Positions 6,690-59,762 of a stretch of 64,000 nucleotides of DNA are shown piece by piece. Position numbers and translations under genes: made by a program. Source of the stretch: Bolinopsis microptera (Eukaryota; Ctenophora; Tentaculata; Lobata; Bolinopsidae). How positions within the stretch are numbered: the stretch's first letter is position 1; every line of letters starts with the position of its first letter. The notes beneath the pieces are model-generated. The model saw nothing but the letters and a program-made list of their open reading frames with translations. It was not told the DNA's origin and did no database searches. The DNA is taken from assembly GCF_026151205.1 (NCBI RefSeq), contig NC_087080.1, positions 5,622,797 to 5,686,796 of the forward strand. The letters are read 5' to 3'.

Positions 6690-33936
<27,247 letters not shown>

Positions 33937-35016: not shown

Positions 35017-36447
35017 CAGAGGCACATATTAGGTGCGGTAAAAAATCGAAATTATGCGGTACCGCACCCGACTATAAAGGTAAAATGTGCGGTAAGGTGC
35101 GGTAAATTTTTACCAATTATGCGGCAAATGTGCGGCGATTTTTTCGAAATTTGTGCGGGAATTGTGCGGGTTTTTTTTGCATTTTCTCGAGGACTTTGGA
35201 AATTCTAAACGTATAACCGCCGCTCTTATCAAAAATAGGTCTGTTTATGTGTTACTGAGGGTGTAGTTCTTTACTAAGACCATGATTGAACCTATATTGA
35301 GATTCAGTTATCTGGGAACAGTGACTTGATCTGGTAGAGATCAGGAATCAGGATACAGTTATTTGAAGACGCCTCTTGATAGAGTCGATCAGATCCCATG
35401 CGTGATCGCAAATATGTGACACGCTTGTTGGCATTGATCGTCAGTATTTGTGAACCATTTGATCCAAGATCCATTAAGCCCACTATAAAGCCAACGCTGC
35501 AACGAATAAAGCTCATTACCCTTTACACCTACTTCTTCTATTATCACCTACGAATGATAACTGATACACTATAATCGAAGTACGGTAACGACGAGGGTTC
35601 CATAATGGCCTGGGTCACGGTCCCGAAAGGGCCTGGATCACGGTCCCGAAAGGGCCTGGGTAACGGTCCCGAAAGGGCGCGGGTAACGGTCCCGAAAGGG
35701 CCTGGGTCACGGTCCCGAAAGGGCCTGAGTCACGTGGCCTAAGCATGAGTTCCAAAAGGGCCTGGGTCACGGTCCCGAAAGGGCCTGGGTCAGGGTCCCG
35801 AAAGGGCCTGGGTCTGGGTCCCGAAAGGGCCTGGGTCACAGTCCCGAAAGGGCCTCGGTCACGTGGTAACCGGGTCACGTGACCTAAGCATGAGTTCCAA
35901 AAGGGCCTGGGTCACGGTCCCGAAAGGGCCTGGGTCAGGGTCCCGAAAGGGCCTGGGTCACGGTCCCGAAAGGGCCTGGGTCACGTGGTAACCGGGTCAC
36001 GTGACCTAAGCATGAGTTCCAAAAGGGCCTGGGTCAGGGTCCCGAAAGGGCCTGGGTCAGGGTCCCGAAAGGGCCTGGGTCAGGGTCCCGAAAGGGCCTG
36101 AGTCACGTGGTAACTGGGTCACGTGGCCTAGGTATGAGTTCCAAAAGGGCCTGGGTCACGGTCCCGAAAGGGCCTGGGTCAGGGTCCCGAAAGGGCCTGG
36201 GCCAGGGTCCCGAAAGGGCCTGAGTCACGGTCCTAAAAGTGCCCAACTTTTAACATATGTTGGTTTTACACTCGAAAATCTTAACGCGAAAATTTCAAAA
36301 TTATGCGAAATTACGCGGAAAATGCTAGATTATGCGGAAATATGCAGATAATTACAAAATGTGCGGAAAACAATAAATTATGCGGAAGTGTGCGGAAAAC
36401 GGTAAATTGTGCGATCCCGCACCCATCGCACCTAATATGTGCCCATG
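35017..36447. mobile_element. 1.43-kb hAT element with TGCGG motif array and inner satellite
   Basis: TIRs GGCACATATTAGGTGCG at both ends (35021 onward and inverted near 36427-36443), with outer bases CAGA and CATG. It is flanked by the perfect 8-bp duplication GTAGAAAT (35009-35016 and 36448-36455). Subterminal zones carry about ten copies each of ATGCGG, GTGCGG or TGCGGAAA. The centre is a 24-bp satellite. No transposase. Confidence 0.92.
35605..36235. repeat. 24-bp satellite with higher-order repeat inside the hAT element
   Basis: The unit GGTCACGGTCCCGAAAGGGC plus CTGG repeats about 25 times. Longer blocks containing GTCACGTGGCCTAAGCATGA and AGTTCCAAAAGGG recur four times at ~100-150-bp spacing, giving a higher-order pattern. 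It is much GC-richer than its surroundings. The open frame across it is an artefact. Confidence 0.92.
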
Positions 36448-48305: not shown

Positions 48306-49680
48306 ATGACTCCCACAAATACCTCTCTTGTGAAATATGACAATCCAAAGCTTGTGAGTCGAAGTACTGATGCCAAAGCACAGAGAAAGCAAAAAAGTCC
48401 ACAACAATCACCAGCACCTGGTGTACCAGGTATACTGAAATTTGAATTATTTACTGAAATTTATTGATTTATGAGGCAGCATGATAAGATTGTGATTCAC
48501 TCGCAGTAACAGTTAAATACTGACTATTTGATTGAGCTCAATATCTGTTACCATTCTATTGTCTATGTACATTAATTTGTGAATTCGAAAGGGAGCACGA
48601 GAGATGGCAAATTGCCACCATTGGAGGTGAAGAATCAAGCAGAAGATATTTTGAACTCAATTCTACCCCCAAGAGAGTGGACTGAAAGTGGGCAGCTCTG
48701 GGTTCAACAGGTTGATAAATAAAGTGTGATTAATTGAAAAGGCTTATATTATACTATGAATCATCTTGAGCTTTCGTTAATACCATTTTGTTAGTTAATG
48801 ATAGATTCAGACCTCCTGTCAATGTACCTTAACTAATCTAGCTCTTGTATTAAAGCTTGAAAATCAAACTTAAATTAACGTTGTTCTCTGCCACCTATAG
48901 GTATCAAGCACTCCTGCCACAAGATTGGATGTTGTTAACCTACAAGAACAGTTAGATATTCGTCTGCAGCAGAGACAGGCCAGAGAAACTGGTATTTGCC
49001 CTGTCCGCAGAGAGCTTTACTCACAGGTATTTGATGATCCGTAAACTAGGTGTGTGAAAAGAGAATTTCAAACTGTTTAACATCTCAATTAATATTTTTT
49101 AAATCTCTAACAATCACTGTAATTGTGAATATTTCTAACACACAACTGGCAACTCTTTTAGTGTTTTGATGAGCTGATAAGACAAGTAACTATCTCCTGC
49201 GCTGAGCGTGGACTTCTGCTCCTTCGTGTGCGAGATGAAATCAGGATGACGATAGCTGCATACCAAACACTCTATGAGAGCAGTGTCGCATTTGGCATGC
49301 GCAAGGCTCTCCAGGCTGAACAAGGTCCGATCATCTGCATACTTTATACCCTTTTCTCATCAGTTTTCATCGATTATTAGTGTATAGAATTGAACATTAA
49401 TATACAATATACATTTTTGTAAGCTAAACTTTTTAACACGTGAAATGTAACAGGTAAGACTGATATGCAGAGGAAGATTGAGGAACTTGAGGAGGAAAAG
49501 AAAGATCTGGAACGTCAAGTAAACGAGTTGAAGTCCAAATGCGATGCTATCGAGAAGAGAGAAGCAGAGAGGCGAGTTGTTGAAGAGAAGAAACATGCAG
49601 AGGAGATACAGTTCTTGAAGAGGACCAACCAGCAGCTGAAGACACAGCTAGAGGGAATCATCCAGCCAAGCAAGAAATAA
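48306..49680 (+). CDS. DNALI1: Axonemal dynein light intermediate chain p28
   Basis: Exons 48306-48429, 48592-48710, 48901-49026, 49162-49324 and 49454-49680 join to 252 residues, against ~258-280 in vertebrates. Conserved blocks are SLVKYDNPKLVSR, ILPPREWTE, LDIRLQQRQARETGICPVRR, CFDELIRQVT, RDEIRMTIAAYQTLYESS and FGMRKALQAEQGK. The C-terminal third is a coiled coil (EELEEEKKDLERQV) ending FLKRTNQQLKTQLEGI. Family role: light chain of single-headed inner-arm dyneins in motile cilia. Exon 1 has two possible donors 9 bp apart (after CCTG or CCAG) in the same phase; the second fits the consensus better. Confidence 0.97.
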
Positions 49681-50183: not shown

Positions 50184-53100
50184 ATGGTCGAAGGAGGAAA
50201 TGACGACGGAAACATTAAACCATATCATGCTAGATTTTTAGCACGGATCCTCAGGTGTTTAAGACTTTATGATTTTTCAACAATTATTGATTTCCTAGCA
50301 ATAAAAGCCTAAAATATAGATTAATGCAGTATCACTTTTGTTAGACTAAAAATGTGGAACCGACATCACAAACCCTAAATGAATCTAAAATAATGCCAAA
50401 ATAGTAACACAGGCAATAATATTACCAGGTCGAGTCAGTTCACTGTAGGTATAGACAAGAAGCAATGTAATTTAACTCCAGTTGTCCTTGACACCAGAAA
50501 ATACCAAGCTGTCTTCAGTGAAGAACGTACCTCCTCTATTTACGAGGTTTGTTAACTTCTGCATCTTTATATTACATCCTGGGTACATCCTGCTTCAGTA
50601 CCTGTCCTTACTACTAGCTAAAGAGCACATCTAAAATACTCAGTTTTGTGTACTGCAAGATAACGGCGGTCTTGTTCCAGGTCCCAGACTGGGAGTTGCT
50701 ACACGCCATAGTTGGGTTATACGACAGTTACCTCCCTGAAATAACACCTGAAGTGTTGTACAACACCCTGACATGTCGATCTTCTCTCACTCTCGTCTTT
50801 CTTAAAGAACCTGAAGGTATTTCTAAAGTAAATGGGGAATTGACAACTACAGAACATTTACTGACTACTCAATTAATTCTTCTTAAATTATTGACTGTTT
50901 TAAATAAACCACTTGCACTTTTTGATCGTAAAATTTGAAACAATATGTGCAAGACTGGTTTATTTGATTTACTTTTTAGATGTATTGAAAGAACGAGACA
51001 GGGACGGTCCAAAAGAGCAGAAAGAAATTCCAAAACCCCAGAAAAAGGAAGGAGTAAAAGCAGAAGAAAGTAAGGATAAGAATAAGGAGGAAAAGGAGGA
51101 GGAGAGTGAGGATGAAGAGAGAATATTCACAGGAGTTTTTAGTGACGATGAGACAGATGATGAAGACAGCAGGTGGGTTTTAAGTACAATCCTCAGGGTC
51201 ACATGACTATTGCTAAAGTATTGTCGGTATTGAACTACTCACTGAAACTTAAATGGTGGAGCTGTATCCACTTTAAAACATAATTAAATAATGTACGTGG
51301 CTGATAACATTACGTCAACAGTGAAGAAGAAACAGAAGATGACGAACACTACGCTGCAAGTGTTGAGGAATATTTGGAGCAGGTTGAGAAGAGAAGAAAA
51401 CTCAGGGAAGAAAACCACTTAGAGTGAGTAAAATGTAAATACTGATCTCATTAATAAATAACAAAATAGGTTTGGAAATATACCGCATTTACCGAACAAG
51501 TAAATAAGACAGCCCCTTTAAGATAACATACTTTATACTCTGCTGCTTAATTAACTTCACCAAAATCACCAAATTTAGAAAAAGAACACCTGAAATATTT
51601 TCAATCCAAGTCACGCATCTTCTGAAACTATGCTCCTTGACGTCATACCATTTTCTCTCGAGTCTGCTGCTGAGTGGCCTCCAGCTGAAATTGTAGTTGG
51701 ACTATAAAGCTGGTTTGTTTGTGTGCTCGGATATTTTCTTGTTGCCACGTAATCCGATCGACTGAGTACTAAGCTTGGAGAATTCCTGGATAACGATTTA
51801 TTCCGCCTGCGAAAAATTCGACACAAAAATCGTCTCATATCCTTCTTCCTGAACAAATACACGAACGGATTCAACGCTGAGTTCATGGGAATAGCTGCAG
51901 TAACGACAACGTGTCTAAATAGAACAGATATAGTTTCTTTTCCAAGCACAAAATTGAACAGCACCACCACATACAGTAGATTGAAGAAACCAAAAAAGGT
52001 TGAGAGGATAAGAATTGTGCCTGTTGCTTGCCGACTGAGGTCTGTCGAACAAGGTCCGTCTGGAGAGTGGTTAGAAATTTTTCGTTTCAGAAGTTTCCAG
52101 ATCGTCATCAAATTCGCGCTCAGGACGACAGTTAAATCAAGAATTAAAGAAATGAGGAGGATGTAGTTGTAAACATCGACAAACTGTATGAGTCTGTCTC
52201 CTTGAACCACCAAAACATAGTACCATGATAGTCCCTCTTTTATTACATTGTAAGACAAGAATGCCGCAAAGGATATAATTATGAGCTTAGTGTTGGGATT
52301 GTAGAAAGGGAAGTAGGTTGAAACAGACCGAGCGACCGTTAACAGTGTCGTCACAAATCCAGTGCATTCTACAAACATGAAGAAGTTCAAGTGAAAGAAA
52401 CTCTGACCTATTTTGTTGACTTGCCAGTAATTGAAAGTCAGGTAGAATGTTGCAAAAAGACAAACGAGAAGATCTAGAATATTCAGGAGAGCAAGGAGTC
52501 TTTCTCCGAGTTTCTTGCTCTGATGAGTGACGAAATAGGACAGTGAGATAACGTTGGAGACTGTTCCAATGGCACTGATGCTGATAGAAATTAATATCAT
52601 TACTTTTAGCTCGGTTTTAGTAAGATATGTTTCGGTAACGGAAACTGCACTGTCTGAATGGTTGGTCGGGTATCCTTCGAAAAGCTCAGTGGTGGCCATG
52701 TCTTGATAGCAAAGTATGTAATGCTCAGCAACAGAAGGTTCTGACTCGGCTAACAAATATCAAATGTTCTCAAACAAGTGTCGAAACAAGGTATTGGTCA
52801 CGTTAACTGATCGATATACCATATATATCATGAAATGAGTCTAACAGCTGTGCGAGATTTCTGTCAGGCGTCGGCGCATAAATATTGTAGTATGTGTGTA
52901 CCACTATTATATATGTGGGATTCATGAAAACCTAAGAGCAGCGATATATAGACGTCCCAGAATGACGACCATCTGGTTTTCATTAGATAAAGTCAGATTG
53001 ATTGACCTGTGATATGGGCATGAAACAGCTGGTGCATTGCTCACCCCCAAAAAAGTGTGTTAATTCTAACACGACAGAAACATCACGTGTATGCATTATA

Positions 53101-56100
53101 CGGTGTTTTAGTTAATAATAATATGGCTAACAAAAATACTGTGCGAATTGCTCAAAAATCATTGTTATTGGGACCCTGAGAAAGATGAGACCCTGAGAGT
53201 GGTGCAGTGGTTCCCTGAGAGGAGTGCAGTGGTTCCCTGAGAGGAGTGCAGTGGTTCCCTGAGAGGAGTGCAGTGGTTCCCTGAGATGAGTGCAGTGGTT
53301 CCCTGAGAGTGGTGCAGTGGTTCTCTGAGAGGAGTGCAGTGGTTCTCTGAGAGGAGTGCAGTGGTTTCCTGAGAGGAGTGCAGTGGTTCCCTGAGAGGAG
53401 TGCAGTGGTTCTCTGAGAGGAGTGCAGTGGTTCTCTGAGAGGAGTGCAGTGGTTCCCTGAGAGGAGTGCAGTGGTTCCCTGAGAGGAGTGCAGTGGTTCC
53501 CTGAGAGGAGTGCAGTGGTTCCCTGAGAGGAGTGCAGTGGTTCCCTGAGAGGGGTGGGACCCAGATTTCAGTTCCAACATGTCACCCATATCTAAGGAAG
53601 CATCTCATCAGTGACATGGCCGCACCCAAAAAATCTGTTTCTGAACTGGACTTATTGTGGCATCCAGATGGCTAGCAAGATTAGTTTAAACAACGTCAAA
53701 AATACTAAAATACCGACTTTAACGAAAAAATTAATTTCTCTAACTCCATCCTTCTCCCCAGTCCAGCCAGTATTGGTGCAGAGTCCTTGTTGGTCGCAGC
53801 AGCCACCTTCAAGCGTGTTCACAACACGGAGGACTCTCCTCGCCGCGACAAGGAACGGATCATCCAGCTAGCACTGCTCGCTGTGAGGATAAGGTTCCGG
53901 AAACTGGGTGTTGGCAGACAGCTCCTTAATGTGAGATATCTATTGTCGCGTTCGTTGAGTCAAAGTCGTTTTATTTTGATCACTATTCTTAAAGAAAAAT
54001 AAAATAAAAAAAAAAGTTACAGTTATTTAATTGAGAAGCTGGTAAGTATACTAATGATAAAATTTCAGTTCGTACGTAACCCAATTGTGGTAGGAGAGTA
54101 CGATGCTTTAGTGTCGTATGTTGATCCCGGTGCCACAGGATTCTTCGTCAGAAATGGGTTCTCAAGTGACCTCATTCTTAATCATCGCTTCAGGTAGTGC
54201 CTCACTGCTCACCTCAGCGTCAAGTCTATTTTTCTGCTGCAAATTGATCGATCAGACGTGGTCAAGTGTCAAAAGTCAAAACACTTTTTTCTCCCCCCCA
54301 TCCCCAGCCATTATTAAATTTATTTCTCCTCAGTGACTTGGTGGATCATTGGGATAATTCTACGCTGATGAGCTACCTTCCGCCTTACTCCGGTAATATT
54401 TTATTTGTTACCAAAATTTAGTTGTAAGACTGAAAACTGCACTTCTCCTTCATGTCAAACCTAAAAACAGCAAATACGAATCCGTTGAAAATTAGAAGTT
54501 AATTGGATCTTTATGATCACTCTTTCTCCATTCTTACCCAAGAAAGTTATCTTAATCTTCTACTTACCTTGACTGATCCCCACAGAGTGTCTATCATCGG
54601 GTACGGTATCACTGCTGCGCGAGATGAGCTCAAGTCTCGGAGATGACATAAAGCGGTGGCGCAGCACGAGCGTGGAGGCATACCAGACGCAGCTCAGCTG
54701 TTTGGAACGCATGAGACACGAGATAATGTTGCTAAGGACTACCGTATCTTCTCAGGTCAGTGTTATTCGATGCTATTTATTATTACTCTGAAGTTTTGTG
54801 ATAGTTCCTGTTTGAATTTCAGAGCCGATCGAAAATATTGCGCTGTGAAAAGCTGCCTCGTAGATTATTTTATGGTCGTAAAATTTTTAAGAATTTTGGT
54901 CGTATAATTTTTTGCCATGCCCATATTTTTCGTGTTTAATGAAATATATTGCGATCAAGTATGGTTGTGGAAAGCTTGCTTGCAAGATCAGAATAAATTA
55001 AACAAAATAGTAAGCTTGATGCATGTTATTCGTTACAAATAAAGAGTAAGCAGCTTGATTTTCAAAAGATCAATAATCATTATTCGTTCATAATGAATGC
55101 AATGTATGCCTGTTATGCTACATTGCCTACATATTAATATGAATATTATAATTATGCAGCTGCATTGCAATTTTAAAACCGTACATGATGAAAAATGGTG
55201 TTTAGGAAACGACAATGAATTCACTGACGAATGAGATTGATAGGTTAAGACTGAGCAAAGGGGTCTGTGAGCGGGAGTTCAGAGAATACAGAGCACAGGT
55301 TTGGAACTATTTTAAATTTCTATGCACAAATTTGAGAAGCCCATTGCATTCTATACATACAGATCGAAGCAATTCCATTCTTCATACGTAGATTGTACAT
55401 TTCGGTTCAATGATGCGAATTTCACGTAAACGCTGTACACTTATTTTTGATCATTGACAATAACAAGTAATTAGCTTATCACTTACACAGGTGCGAGCCA
55501 TGTTGAGTAGACTCAAGAACGGTAAAGAGGACTTGGAATCAGCCGAGAGCGAAATCATGAGTCTCTCCTTAGTGGGAAATAAAGATAGTCTTGTGAATGG
55601 GCATGTGTCAGAAAATGTTGCAGTAACGGTAGGTTACGTCGAAAAAAGTACCACATATAAATGAATAAAGTACCACATCTAAATTGCTCCACGGTTTCAT
55701 TTACAAATTAACATTAAATTACTTTGATAAGTAAGTTTGGAATTTATTTCTTTATTGCAGTTTTGTTACGTTTCGATAAGTAATTAAAGCTGTCTTATCT
55801 ATATCATATCGCTACAATTTAAATTTCCTTTTTTATTGTTTTATTATGATTATTAGTTACCATTATTTCTCTCCATGTTGAGCGCTCATTATCTTTGACA
55901 TATCTCTCAGATCGGCGAGGAAGAATTTAGCGATCTAGAGGATGAAATAAGATCAGCCATATGTGCTGTACCTTCCTATAAGTCGATCAGAATAACCTCA
56001 ATTGAAAAGGTATTTTAAGTTTTCCTGGAAATTAACAGTTTAAGCTTTTAGTAATCCATTCATTTTATCTTCATTGCTAGAATTGGATCTTGAAAGTAAT

Positions 56101-57971
56101 GTTTTTATGCAATATTTTGCGTTTAATTTTAAATGTGATCCGTTCATCAGCAAAACGCAGAAAAGTCAGCATTGCTTCGAAATGTGTACAAAGCGCGGTG
56201 CAATGCACTACGTGACCCCAACATGACCATGAAGCTCTACTACTGTGGTGGCAAAGGTGGCACATTGCACAGGGTGCTAAAAGAGGGGTTCCAACCCAAG
56301 GATATGGTGGTTGGAGATTTCGGGGTGGGCATGTATTTCACCCAAAATCCTGTCAGAGCAATGCAGTATTCTGAGGTCGGCTAAATTTTTTGCTGGACGT
56401 TTTCTGTACATTGGATCTAGATTTAATACCCAACGTTCGCGTTGGTTAGATATTGAAATTTCATGATTCAGATATTTGAAGTATAGTTGGTAGTAGATTA
56501 CACTATTTTGTATTTCAGCCTGGGCTGCTATTGCAATGCGAAGTTGGGATCGGTAATGCAGAATCTGTACTTAAAATGGACCAAACCAGGTGACCTCCCC
56601 TATAGCTTTACAATTATATTTATCGTCTAATTATTGAATACTAAACAAGCTCTCAACCAGTGATCTGTTGACTGGCCACATCATTCTTCGATGTTCTTCT
56701 AAATCATTCCTCTAATCGGGTTAAGGAATCTCTGGCTTGAAATAAAGTCCAGAAGTCCTAAAACTAATTTCGCCTCCATCAAAACCCTAGCAACGTAAAA
56801 TCCCGGACTGCATTTGTACAAGACCACTTTTGGAAAATTTGCCATTTAAACTGGTCCGGAAATAGTGTTTTCATTACCTTGCTCGGGAATATTATAGTGG
56901 GTTAATTTATGACTGGGAAAATTAATGAACGGGAAAAATATGGCGGAATTTTTCAAAACCCACCAAGCATCAAAACGTATTACTATTAGTTTACCTTACT
57001 CGGAAACATTATAGTGGGTTAATTTATGACTGGGAAAATTAATGACCGGGAAAAATATGGCGGAATTTTCCAAAACCCACCACTTTATCCCAGTCATAAT
57101 ATTCCCGAGTAAGGTATGTTTTGAGGATAAATTAAGCGATATGGCAATATTTTAATTACAAAGGGTCTACTTATATATTTCACGGAACGCGCGAAAGTTG
57201 ATATACTACCGCAACTTTTTTTGTTCAGCAGTCAGTGCAACAGAATTTTACTGCGCGGTGTGTACAATTCTTCGTTGCTAAGTGACGAGCACATCCGTAG
57301 CAACGAAAGACATTTCAGCTAGGGACAAAGGTCCTCTTGTTATGTCGTCAATAAACCTCGCAGATATTTTGGCGGTTGCAAGATTAATCATGGTCCTTAA
57401 CCCAATTTATCACTCTTATTTGATTGTTATGCAGCATGAATTGTTTCGATTCCTGTTTCAATGTTCTTGACATACGTTGCATGCCACATTTCGCGCGCGA
57501 AGCGCGCGCCGCCGAAGGCGGAAATAATATCTCTGATATTTGTGATACGTAACATGTATCAACAATGTTCAAAGATACGCGTGAGGTACATACTAATAAA
57601 GTTGTTTCCCAGAAATCGACCACCAGTGGGATTTGACTCGATATTGACGGGAGAAAGAGACGTTGATCATATAGGGATATACAGTCATCAGAGGCACAAT
57701 GAACTGCAATATTTAGTTTTCGATAGTAAGCAGGTAAGCACAAAGCAGTGCAATGTGAAACTGAAAAAGAATACAACTACAAGATCTATCAGTCGTTAGT
57801 CGTACATATACAATATATTTTAATAGGGGTTGTGTTGTTCACATATTTACAGATAACCTGACTAAACAGGAAACTAGAGATAACGAGGATTTCATTTTAA
57901 ATTTCCATTATGAACTAAATAATCCCCATTTTCAGGCAGTACCTCTCTACCTGATTTATTTCACTGTTTGA
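50184..57971 (+). CDS. GNAT acetyltransferase-PARP catalytic-domain fusion protein
   Basis: Sixteen exons: 50184-50254, 50429-50546, 50681-50816, 50980-51172, 51322-51423, 53762-53930, 54069-54193, 54334-54392, 54586-54755, 55206-55298, 55491-55628, 55911-56009, 56151-56375, 56519-56589, 57613-57733, 57936-57971. They sum to 641 residues in one frame. Residues ~150-205 are a charged acidic insert. Residues ~207-320 hold a GNAT core: LALLAVRIRFRKLGVG (acetyl-CoA loop R-x-x-G-x-G) and GATGFFVRNGFSSD. Residues ~325-460 are helical or coiled coil. Residues ~500-641 are PARP-like (LYYCGG, GDFGVGMYFTQNP, YLVFDSKQAVPLYLIYF). The H-Y-E triad reads C523-Y553-Q622 by eye alignment. The start ATG has an ACCATC-ATG-G context. 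Intron 5 contains an antisense GPCR. Function unknown. Confidence 0.85.
51611..52699 (-). CDS. Intronless rhodopsin-like (class A) GPCR nested in an intron
   Basis: 362 residues from the ATG at 52699; the frame upstream opens only with TTG. An N-glycosylation site (NHS) lies in the short N-terminus. TM1 is around VMILISISISAIGTVSNVIS. TM3 ends ARSVSTYFP, so the usual DRY is ARS. TM7 has NSALNPFVYLF, the NPxxY motif, followed by a basic helix 8 (RKKDMRRFLCR). The Ser/Thr-rich tail is ~60 residues. It belongs to the broad class A set expanded in invertebrates; the ligand cannot be assigned. It lies wholly in intron 5 of the plus-strand GNAT-PARP gene. Confidence 0.88.
   Translation of the reverse strand: MATTELFEGYPTNHSDSAVSVTETYLTKTELKVMILISISISAIGTVSNVISLSYFVTHQSKKLGERLLALLNILDLLVCLFATFYLTFNYWQVNKIGQSFFHLNFFMFVECTGFVTTLLTVARSVSTYFPFYNPNTKLIIISFAAFLSYNVIKEGLSWYYVLVVQGDRLIQFVDVYNYILLISLILDLTVVLSANLMTIWKLLKRKISNHSPDGPCSTDLSRQATGTILILSTFFGFFNLLYVVVLFNFVLGKETISVLFRHVVVTAAIPMNSALNPFVYLFRKKDMRRFLCRIFRRRNKSLSRNSPSLVLSRSDYVATRKYPSTQTNQLYSPTTISAGGHSAADSRENGMTSRSIVSEDA
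53177..53552. repeat. 22-bp minisatellite (CTGAGAGGAGTGCAGTGGTTCC)
   Basis: About seventeen units with single-base variants (e.g. GAGATGAG, TTCTCTG). It sits in intron 5 of the GNAT-PARP gene, ~480 bp upstream of the nested GPCR start codon. The minus-strand open frame across it is an artefact of unit composition. Confidence 0.95.
56877..57114. mobile_element. MITE with internal tandem duplication in a GNAT-PARP intron
   Basis: CCTTGCTCGGGAATATTAT at the left and ATAATATTCCCGAGTAAGG at the right are TIRs flanked by TA on both sides. A ~115-bp inner unit (GTGGGTTAATTTATGACTGG ... CAAAACCCACCA) is present twice in tandem. The TA flank suggests a Tc1/mariner-like family. Confidence 0.85.
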
Positions 57972-58603: not shown

Positions 58604-59762
58604 ATGGCGGAGGTTCATATTATTGGTAACCTAGATGGCGGTGAAGGATTTTCCTCCCCAAATTTGTCATGCAAATGGTGTTTTGAAACTGGAGGAGCTT
58701 GGAGACTCTTAGAAGGAGTCAAAGACGGTCAAACTCAGGTATTTCAACATTGTCATAATTTCTCAGCTTTCTCACATTTTCTTTAGATTCTAATATATAT
58801 CTCCTTTCTAATATATATCTCCATATATCTCCATCAAGATCGGTAGTTCCCGCAATCAAACAACGAATGAGTTTTTAAAAGTTCCAATTAAGTTCCAATT
58901 TAAGATGATTTAAGAATTCCTCATCTATATTCTATGAGCGTATAAATGCACTAATTAATTCGATTCATTGACAGTGTACTTTAACTTATCCGATGCTACC
59001 ATCCACACTGTCAATATAAGCTAATCTATTATTGTTTCTGTTAGGTTGATCATCCTATAGATGAGGGAATAGCACACTGGTCTCATCCCATAGATCTACA
59101 CTACGCTATAAAGGGGATCCAGGGCTGGCCCAAACTCTCACTCCAGGTTTCTAAGCCTATACTGTATTTAAAGCGATGCCAACATGACGTAATAATATGA
59201 TTGTTTAGTAATACTTCTAGGTCCCTGTTATCACCAATAAATCAACATGATTGGTCCAACATGTCAGGTATACAGTGAAGATATGTACGGCAGAACCCAA
59301 CTAGTTGGGTATGGTTTTGTACATTTACCCACCTCTCCTGGATTTCACAAGATTGAGTGTCCTACTTGGCAACTGGCAGGTTAGTAGTCTATATTAAGTG
59401 GTCGATGTTTCAGAGTATTTGTCTTTCATAGTGATACCTGGTGATGACAGAATTTCCTTTTTTTTGGATAACTGGATTGAACTTAATCATTTTAATGCCT
59501 ATTCTTATGAGATTTGAGCTTTTTTCATATAAATTGTTAAATTGAAACATCAGAGGGACTGGTTTTAACTGTTTTTTGCTCAGGAAGTGCGATGGATCAA
59601 GTACAATCATATTTCGTTGGCAGTGGGCCTCAGCTTATTAATGATGACGTCATAGCATCTGGCTCAGACCGATATAGATTACAGACAATCGCCTCAGGGA
59701 CTGTTTACCTTTCTTTATTTCTTGTGACAAGGAACTTTAACAAGTTTGGTATAGAATCGTGA
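58604..59762 (+). CDS. B9D2: B9 domain-containing protein 2
   Basis: Exons 58604-58738, 59045-59146, 59268-59379 and 59584-59762 give 175 residues, the same as human B9D2. [20 protein letters not shown] starts the B9 (C2-like) domain. Other conserved parts are [50 protein letters not shown] and [10 protein letters not shown]. Family role: transition-zone tectonic/MKS complex with B9D1 and MKS1 at the base of cilia. Splice sites are all GT-AG and phases agree. Confidence 0.98.

Follow-up and report, generated by a model that had tools for sequence, protein, structure and literature searches.

A stretch of 64,000 nucleotides from the genome of the ctenophore Bolinopsis microptera (contig C9, positions 5622797-5686796; hereafter, the window) contains a predicted 16-exon gene that appears to encode a single polypeptide, in which an N-terminal acetyltransferase-like region of the GNAT type is followed by a coiled coil and a C-terminal domain of the poly(ADP-ribose) polymerase (PARP) type. 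In both halves a glutamine is aligned with the catalytic glutamate (Gln242 and Gln622), and a cysteine (Cys523) occupies the place of the NAD+-contacting histidine of PARPs. With roughly even confidence, we read the protein as a PARP incapable of elongation, and possibly inactive, to which a disarmed acetyltransferase is attached; it would serve mainly as a scaffold or a cofactor-binding adaptor.

The gene model was rebuilt independently from the sequence. The 16 exons joined in a single frame to give 641 residues and a stop codon, as a preliminary description of this DNA had proposed, and Cys523, Tyr553 and Gln622 carry the same numbers in both versions. All 15 introns are GT-AG with compatible phases, and retention of any one of them would lead to a stop codon. 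Over the whole message, the annotated frame had the highest codon score (0.201, versus 0.100 and 0.092 for the other two), with the score trained on open reading frames that are not all proven genes.

The PARP-like assignment of the C-terminus was confirmed by Pfam PF00644, which matched residues 462-638 above its curated cut-off when the whole protein was scanned (E 4e-8; 33.4 bits versus 26.7) and matched more strongly, over nearly the whole profile, when the C-terminal region was scanned alone (E 6.5e-11, 42.6 bits). In the PDB, the best match of this part was PARP4 (E 7e-4), followed by the tankyrases (E 0.12 and weaker). Against a profile built from the PARP1-like and tankyrase-like genes of the same genome, the PARP part scored 10.8 bits, and the best of 1000 shuffles scored 4.1. 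A chance match was rejected on the basis of the whole-protein E value and of this excess over all of the shuffles. Orthology to PARP4 or to the tankyrases was also rejected, as none of their accessory domains is among the Pfam matches and the tankyrase-like gene lies elsewhere in the genome.

The catalytic positions were assigned in a three-sequence alignment with the tankyrase-like (L002) and PARP1-like (L001) genes, which were named by eye and both keep the H-Y-E triad. Cys523 was aligned with His, Tyr553 with Tyr and Gln622 with Glu, so that the Tyr alone is kept, and the C-Y-Q triad of the preliminary description was thus recovered with sequences from the organism itself. The first two residues are encoded by exon 13 and Gln622 by exon 15. 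An alignment with human sequences placed the three residues at the same positions. Elsewhere in the pocket, Gly524, Phe554, Tyr564 and the G-x-G-x-Y-F loop are retained, and Ala561, unnoticed before, stands where the PARP1-like and tankyrase-like genes have Ser. The genome also holds a further gene with a PARP domain (L003, G000:C9:10152125-10155475), whose catalytic domain contains, by eye, a long acidic segment close to its end.

The N-terminal part is nearer to GCN5/PCAF than to other GNATs, judging from search scores. Among the 16 PDB sequences matched at E<=1, 12 belong to the GCN5/KAT2 family, three are PARP4 and one is unrelated. The best GCN5/PCAF match of the N-terminal part had an E value of 1.6e-4, which improved to 2.3e-5 after removal of a charged insert; with or without it, every one of the 12 GNAT chains that reached E<=1 was GCN5/PCAF. 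This insert (residues 109-206) separates the two halves of the GNAT core by 98 residues, 59% of which are Asp, Glu, Lys or Arg. Hardly any gaps were needed to align the C-terminal half (residues 237-324) with GCN5, and the N-terminal half (residues 64-107) is collinear but weakly aligned, its local score being matched by 26 of 5000 shuffles. The sequence R253-K-L-G-V-G258 fits the acetyl-CoA P-loop consensus Q/R-x-x-G-x-G/A (PMC4964394). In addition, Gln242 is aligned with the general-base Glu of GCN5 (E122 in Tetrahymena, E173 in yeast and E575 in human; PMC4964394, and for its role also PMC3344931), with no gaps nearby in the Tetrahymena alignment. The GCN5 of the same genome, 58% identical to Tetrahymena GCN5 over the matched stretch, keeps the Glu and likewise places it opposite Gln242. 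This substitution was absent from the preliminary description and is new here. Support for the GNAT core claimed there comes solely from the GCN5/PCAF similarity, with the acetyl-CoA loop retained; the three Pfam GNAT models remained below their cut-offs, both in the whole protein (18.1, 13.3 and 13.3 bits versus 27, 23.6 and 20.7, respectively) and with the charged insert cut out (20.3, 14.7 and 14.0 bits). No bromodomain is among the nine Pfam families matching the protein at E<=1.

The two halves might belong to adjacent genes or alternative transcripts, a GNAT gene that stops around exon 9 and a PARP gene that begins around exon 10 having been wrongly joined by eye; we consider this improbable. 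The gene model was read from DNA alone, and AATAAA/ATTAAA motifs are present in introns 9 and 11. However, such motifs occur in 9 of the 15 introns and are therefore uninformative, and introns 9-11 are short (450, 192 and 282 bases) with agreeing phases. Moreover, residues 351-443, encoded by exons 9-11, follow mostly one heptad register through the 9/10 and 10/11 junctions, with 62 coiled-coil windows in a single register, a number reached by 1 of 2000 shuffles. A gene boundary in intron 9 or 10 is disfavored because it would cut this predicted coiled coil.

The assembly searched comprises 264.65 Mb in 232 contigs. The whole-genome search with the fusion protein, in which 21 candidates were scored, gave a list of 16 matches at E<=1. 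Fifteen lie at the locus itself, each exon but exon 16 contributing one, and the sixteenth (E 0.02) falls on the organism's own GCN5 gene. A second copy in the genome was rejected on this ground, and since the own GCN5 is the only listed match outside the locus, the GNAT-PARP gene is single-copy within the reach of this search. Viral contigs scanned with the PARP and GNAT parts, and prokaryote genome contigs scanned with 435 residues (from the C-terminal half of the GNAT core to the end), yielded no relative, and a phage collection scanned with the PARP part gave no match at E<=0.01. As these collections are viral or prokaryotic, absence from them is uninformative on animals. The protein had one weak match in NCBIfam, which we regard as meaningless.

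The consequences of the substitutions were gauged from published mutants. Because Gln622 matches the change in PARP1 E988Q, which lowers elongation about 2800-fold (PMC6486540), polymer elongation has probably been lost, and polymer synthesis by the GNAT-PARP protein is very unlikely. The earlier argument against poly(ADP-ribose) synthesis thus holds by virtue of Gln622. Yeast Gcn5 E173Q, the counterpart of the Gln242 change, serves experimenters as a mutant without catalysis (PMC4398931), and the protein is unlikely to transfer acetyl groups in the manner of GCN5. With its P-loop retained, the N-terminal half would be a pseudo-acetyltransferase in which acetyl-CoA binding may persist. The position of Cys523 is also substituted in the inactive PARP9 and PARP13 (PMC6486540), and Arabidopsis PARP3, in which the His is a Cys and the Tyr a Val, neither makes polymer nor binds NAD+ (PMC6701155); the PARP half would probably transfer little or no ADP-ribose. 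On these grounds we prefer, with roughly even confidence, a scaffold or adaptor comparable to the pseudo-PARP TASOR (PMC7532188); the coiled coil would probably make the protein a dimer.

A different possibility, which we regard as tentative and clearly the weaker one, is an active mono-ADP-ribosyltransferase carrying a GNAT-derived binding module, in which Gln622 would position NAD+ without elongation and Cys523 would partly replace the His. The retained Gly524, Tyr553, Phe554 and Tyr564 are consistent with such an activity, but the His-to-Cys and Ser-to-Ala changes would remove probable NAD+ contacts. PARP1 E988Q, in which mono-ADP-ribosylation persists, is in use as a mono-ADP-ribosylating mutant (PMC5552275), but the inactive Arabidopsis PARP3, PARP9 and PARP13 share the substituted His. 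Mono-ADP-ribosylation by the GNAT-PARP protein is thus possible but disfavored. The preliminary description had proposed mono-ADP-ribosylation, a changed activity or a sensor; for the first of these E988Q is a precedent, and Arabidopsis PARP3 argues through the His-to-Cys change against an ordinary mono-ADP-ribosyltransferase. The same description implied a bifunctional enzyme, with acetyltransferase and ADP-ribosyltransferase both active on one chain. Both domains and the P-loop are present, and the two-domain fusion stands. Paired acetylation and ADP-ribose signaling is nevertheless weakened, as Gln242 is the change of the dead yeast mutant and Ala561 is a further difference in the PARP pocket. 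With Gln replacing both catalytic glutamates, we hold a bifunctional enzyme to be improbable.

Several observations weigh against the disarmed scaffold or adaptor or against parts of the evidence for it. On the PARP side, the match to the own-genome profile consists of three collinear weak pieces (best, 4.2 bits), and an exon-by-exon genome search with PF00644 at E<=0.001 listed 18 places, among which the GNAT-PARP gene was not found, so the PARP signal requires joined exons. Cys523 is covered neither by the printed own-genome profile alignment nor by any printed pairwise PDB alignment; as the latter stop short of it, its column rests on the multiple alignments. The GNAT assignment has modest scores and failed at all three Pfam cut-offs, and the general base is a different one in many GNATs that are not GCN5, which means that Gln242 by itself is no proof of inactivity. 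Within the model, which was predicted from genomic DNA, the annotated frame scored best in only 8 of the 16 exons taken singly, and a few coiled-coil windows lie below the threshold or in another register. The Gln242, Gln622 and Cys523 substitutions are seen in this one sequence. The persistence of mono-ADP-ribosylation in E988Q also counts here, as does Arabidopsis PARP1 bearing C-V-E, which bound NAD+ and made no polymer (PMC6701155); the assays in that work scored polymer rather than single ADP-ribose.

GCN5-like GNATs and PARPs are each known; as far as the literature search reached, the new element is their fusion with a Glu-to-Gln change in both. That search listed no paper on a GNAT-PARP fusion in an animal; it did not extend to animal protein databases, and an earlier description is possible. 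Neither "acetyltransferase" nor "GNAT" occurs in the main text of two PARP surveys (PMC2964712, PMC4245714). The same architecture may already sit in animal protein databases as automatic annotation. A more far-reaching proposal, to which we assign a low probability, is that the gene represents an undescribed animal family that arose by fusion of a GCN5-type acetyltransferase with a PARP, each disarmed by the same Glu-to-Gln change, giving a dimeric scaffold that would read acetyl-CoA and/or NAD+, or acetylated or ADP-ribosylated partners, perhaps at the cilium. Chromatin proteins are marked both by acetylases of the GCN5 type and by PARPs, and the substrates of these enzymes, acetyl-CoA and NAD+ respectively, are central metabolites. 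If true, the proposal would mean that nature has produced an equivalent of the laboratory mutants Gcn5 E173Q and PARP1 E988Q, in which one could examine whether pairs of disarmed enzymes turn into metabolite-sensing scaffolds. If the PARP half is active instead, the meaning of a Cys at the His position for the family would need revision.

Some 500 bases separate the coding span from the end of the frame of an axonemal dynein light chain gene upstream, and some 630 bases from the frame of a B9-C2 basal-body protein gene downstream, all on the forward strand (Table 1). The position between these neighbors hints at, but does not establish, a link between the GNAT-PARP protein and cilia. On the opposite strand of intron 5 is an intronless open reading frame of 382 residues (51614-52759, minus strand), by eye a rhodopsin-type seven-transmembrane receptor, which had no Pfam match at E<=0.001. 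The same intron contains a tandem array of a 22-base unit (53191-53556; 16.6 copies, 95% matches). Intron 14 contains two 92-base direct repeats that are 95% alike, with 21-base inverted ends (56874-57116), resembling a small non-autonomous transposable element. Elsewhere in the window, a 1188-residue open reading frame (25742-29305, plus strand) that matches the LDL-receptor class A and 7tm_1 families is probably an LDLa-type seven-transmembrane receptor, a large share of which is encoded by a single exon, and a tandem array with nested periods of 23, 46, 122 and 145 bases lies at 35597-36233.

Table 1 The predicted GNAT-PARP gene, its parts and its neighbors, in window coordinates
Feature	Position	Strand	Basis
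Upstream neighbor, axonemal dynein light chain gene, last exons (approximate start)	49162..49680	+	Pfam PF10211, E 6.9e-81, hand-joined exon pieces
Predicted GNAT-PARP fusion gene, 16 exons, 641 residues	50184..57971	+	Splice-junction model, all GT-AG; 15/16 exons recovered in the whole-genome protein search
Exon 1, from Met1 to residue 23/24; the least secure exon	50184..50254	+	First ATG after in-frame stop
Exon 2	50429..50546	+	Splice model
Exon 3, N-terminal half of GNAT core (residues 64-107)	50681..50816	+	Weak GCN5 alignment around L-P-x-x-x-x-E
Exons 4-5 (50980-51172, 51322-51423), charged insert, residues 109-206	50980..51423	+	59% D/E/K/R
Exon 6, GNAT motif A: Gln242 and P-loop R-K-L-G-V-G (253-258)	53762..53930	+	GCN5 alignments
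Exons 7-8 (54069-54193, 54334-54392), C-terminal half of GNAT core	54069..54392	+	Y-x-D-x-x-A-x-G-x-F and T-L-M in common with GCN5
Exons 9-11 (54586-54755, 55206-55298, 55491-55628), predicted coiled-coil linker	54586..55628	+	Heptad register
Exons 12-16 (55911-56009, 56151-56375, 56519-56589, 57613-57733, 57936-57971), PARP catalytic-type domain	55911..57971	+	Pfam match 462-638
Downstream neighbor, B9-C2 basal-body protein gene, first exons (approximate end)	58604..59384	+	Pfam PF07162, E 2.9e-42, hand-joined exon pieces

Compared with known systems, the N-terminal half shares with GCN5/PCAF (KAT2) the GNAT core, the R/Q-x-x-G-x-G P-loop, the Y-x-D-x-x-A-x-G-x-F motif and T-L-M near the C-terminal end, but differs in the Gln for the general-base Glu, the charged insert of about 98 residues, the attached PARP and the lack of a bromodomain among the Pfam matches. 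The C-terminal half shares the G-x-G-x-Y-F loop and the closing strand with the catalytic domains of PARP4 (vPARP) and the tankyrases, its best PDB matches, but has C-Y-Q for H-Y-E, and no Pfam match corresponds to an accessory domain of either. ADP-ribosyltransferase and GNAT domains are also mentioned in the large polyvalent proteins of phages (PMC7824862), but these are injected phage proteins rather than a GCN5-PARP fusion in an animal. The pseudo-PARP of TASOR, in the HUSH complex, is a non-catalytic PARP fold reused within a larger chromatin protein, although its pocket is far more degenerate and a GNAT domain is unmentioned in the portion of that paper considered (PMC7532188). Finally, plant PARP3 (clade 1D of Citarelli; triad C-V-E) also has a Cys at the His position (PMC2964712, PMC6701155), but it keeps the Glu, loses the Tyr and has BRCT, WGR and PRD domains, whereas the fusion protein keeps the Tyr and loses the Glu.

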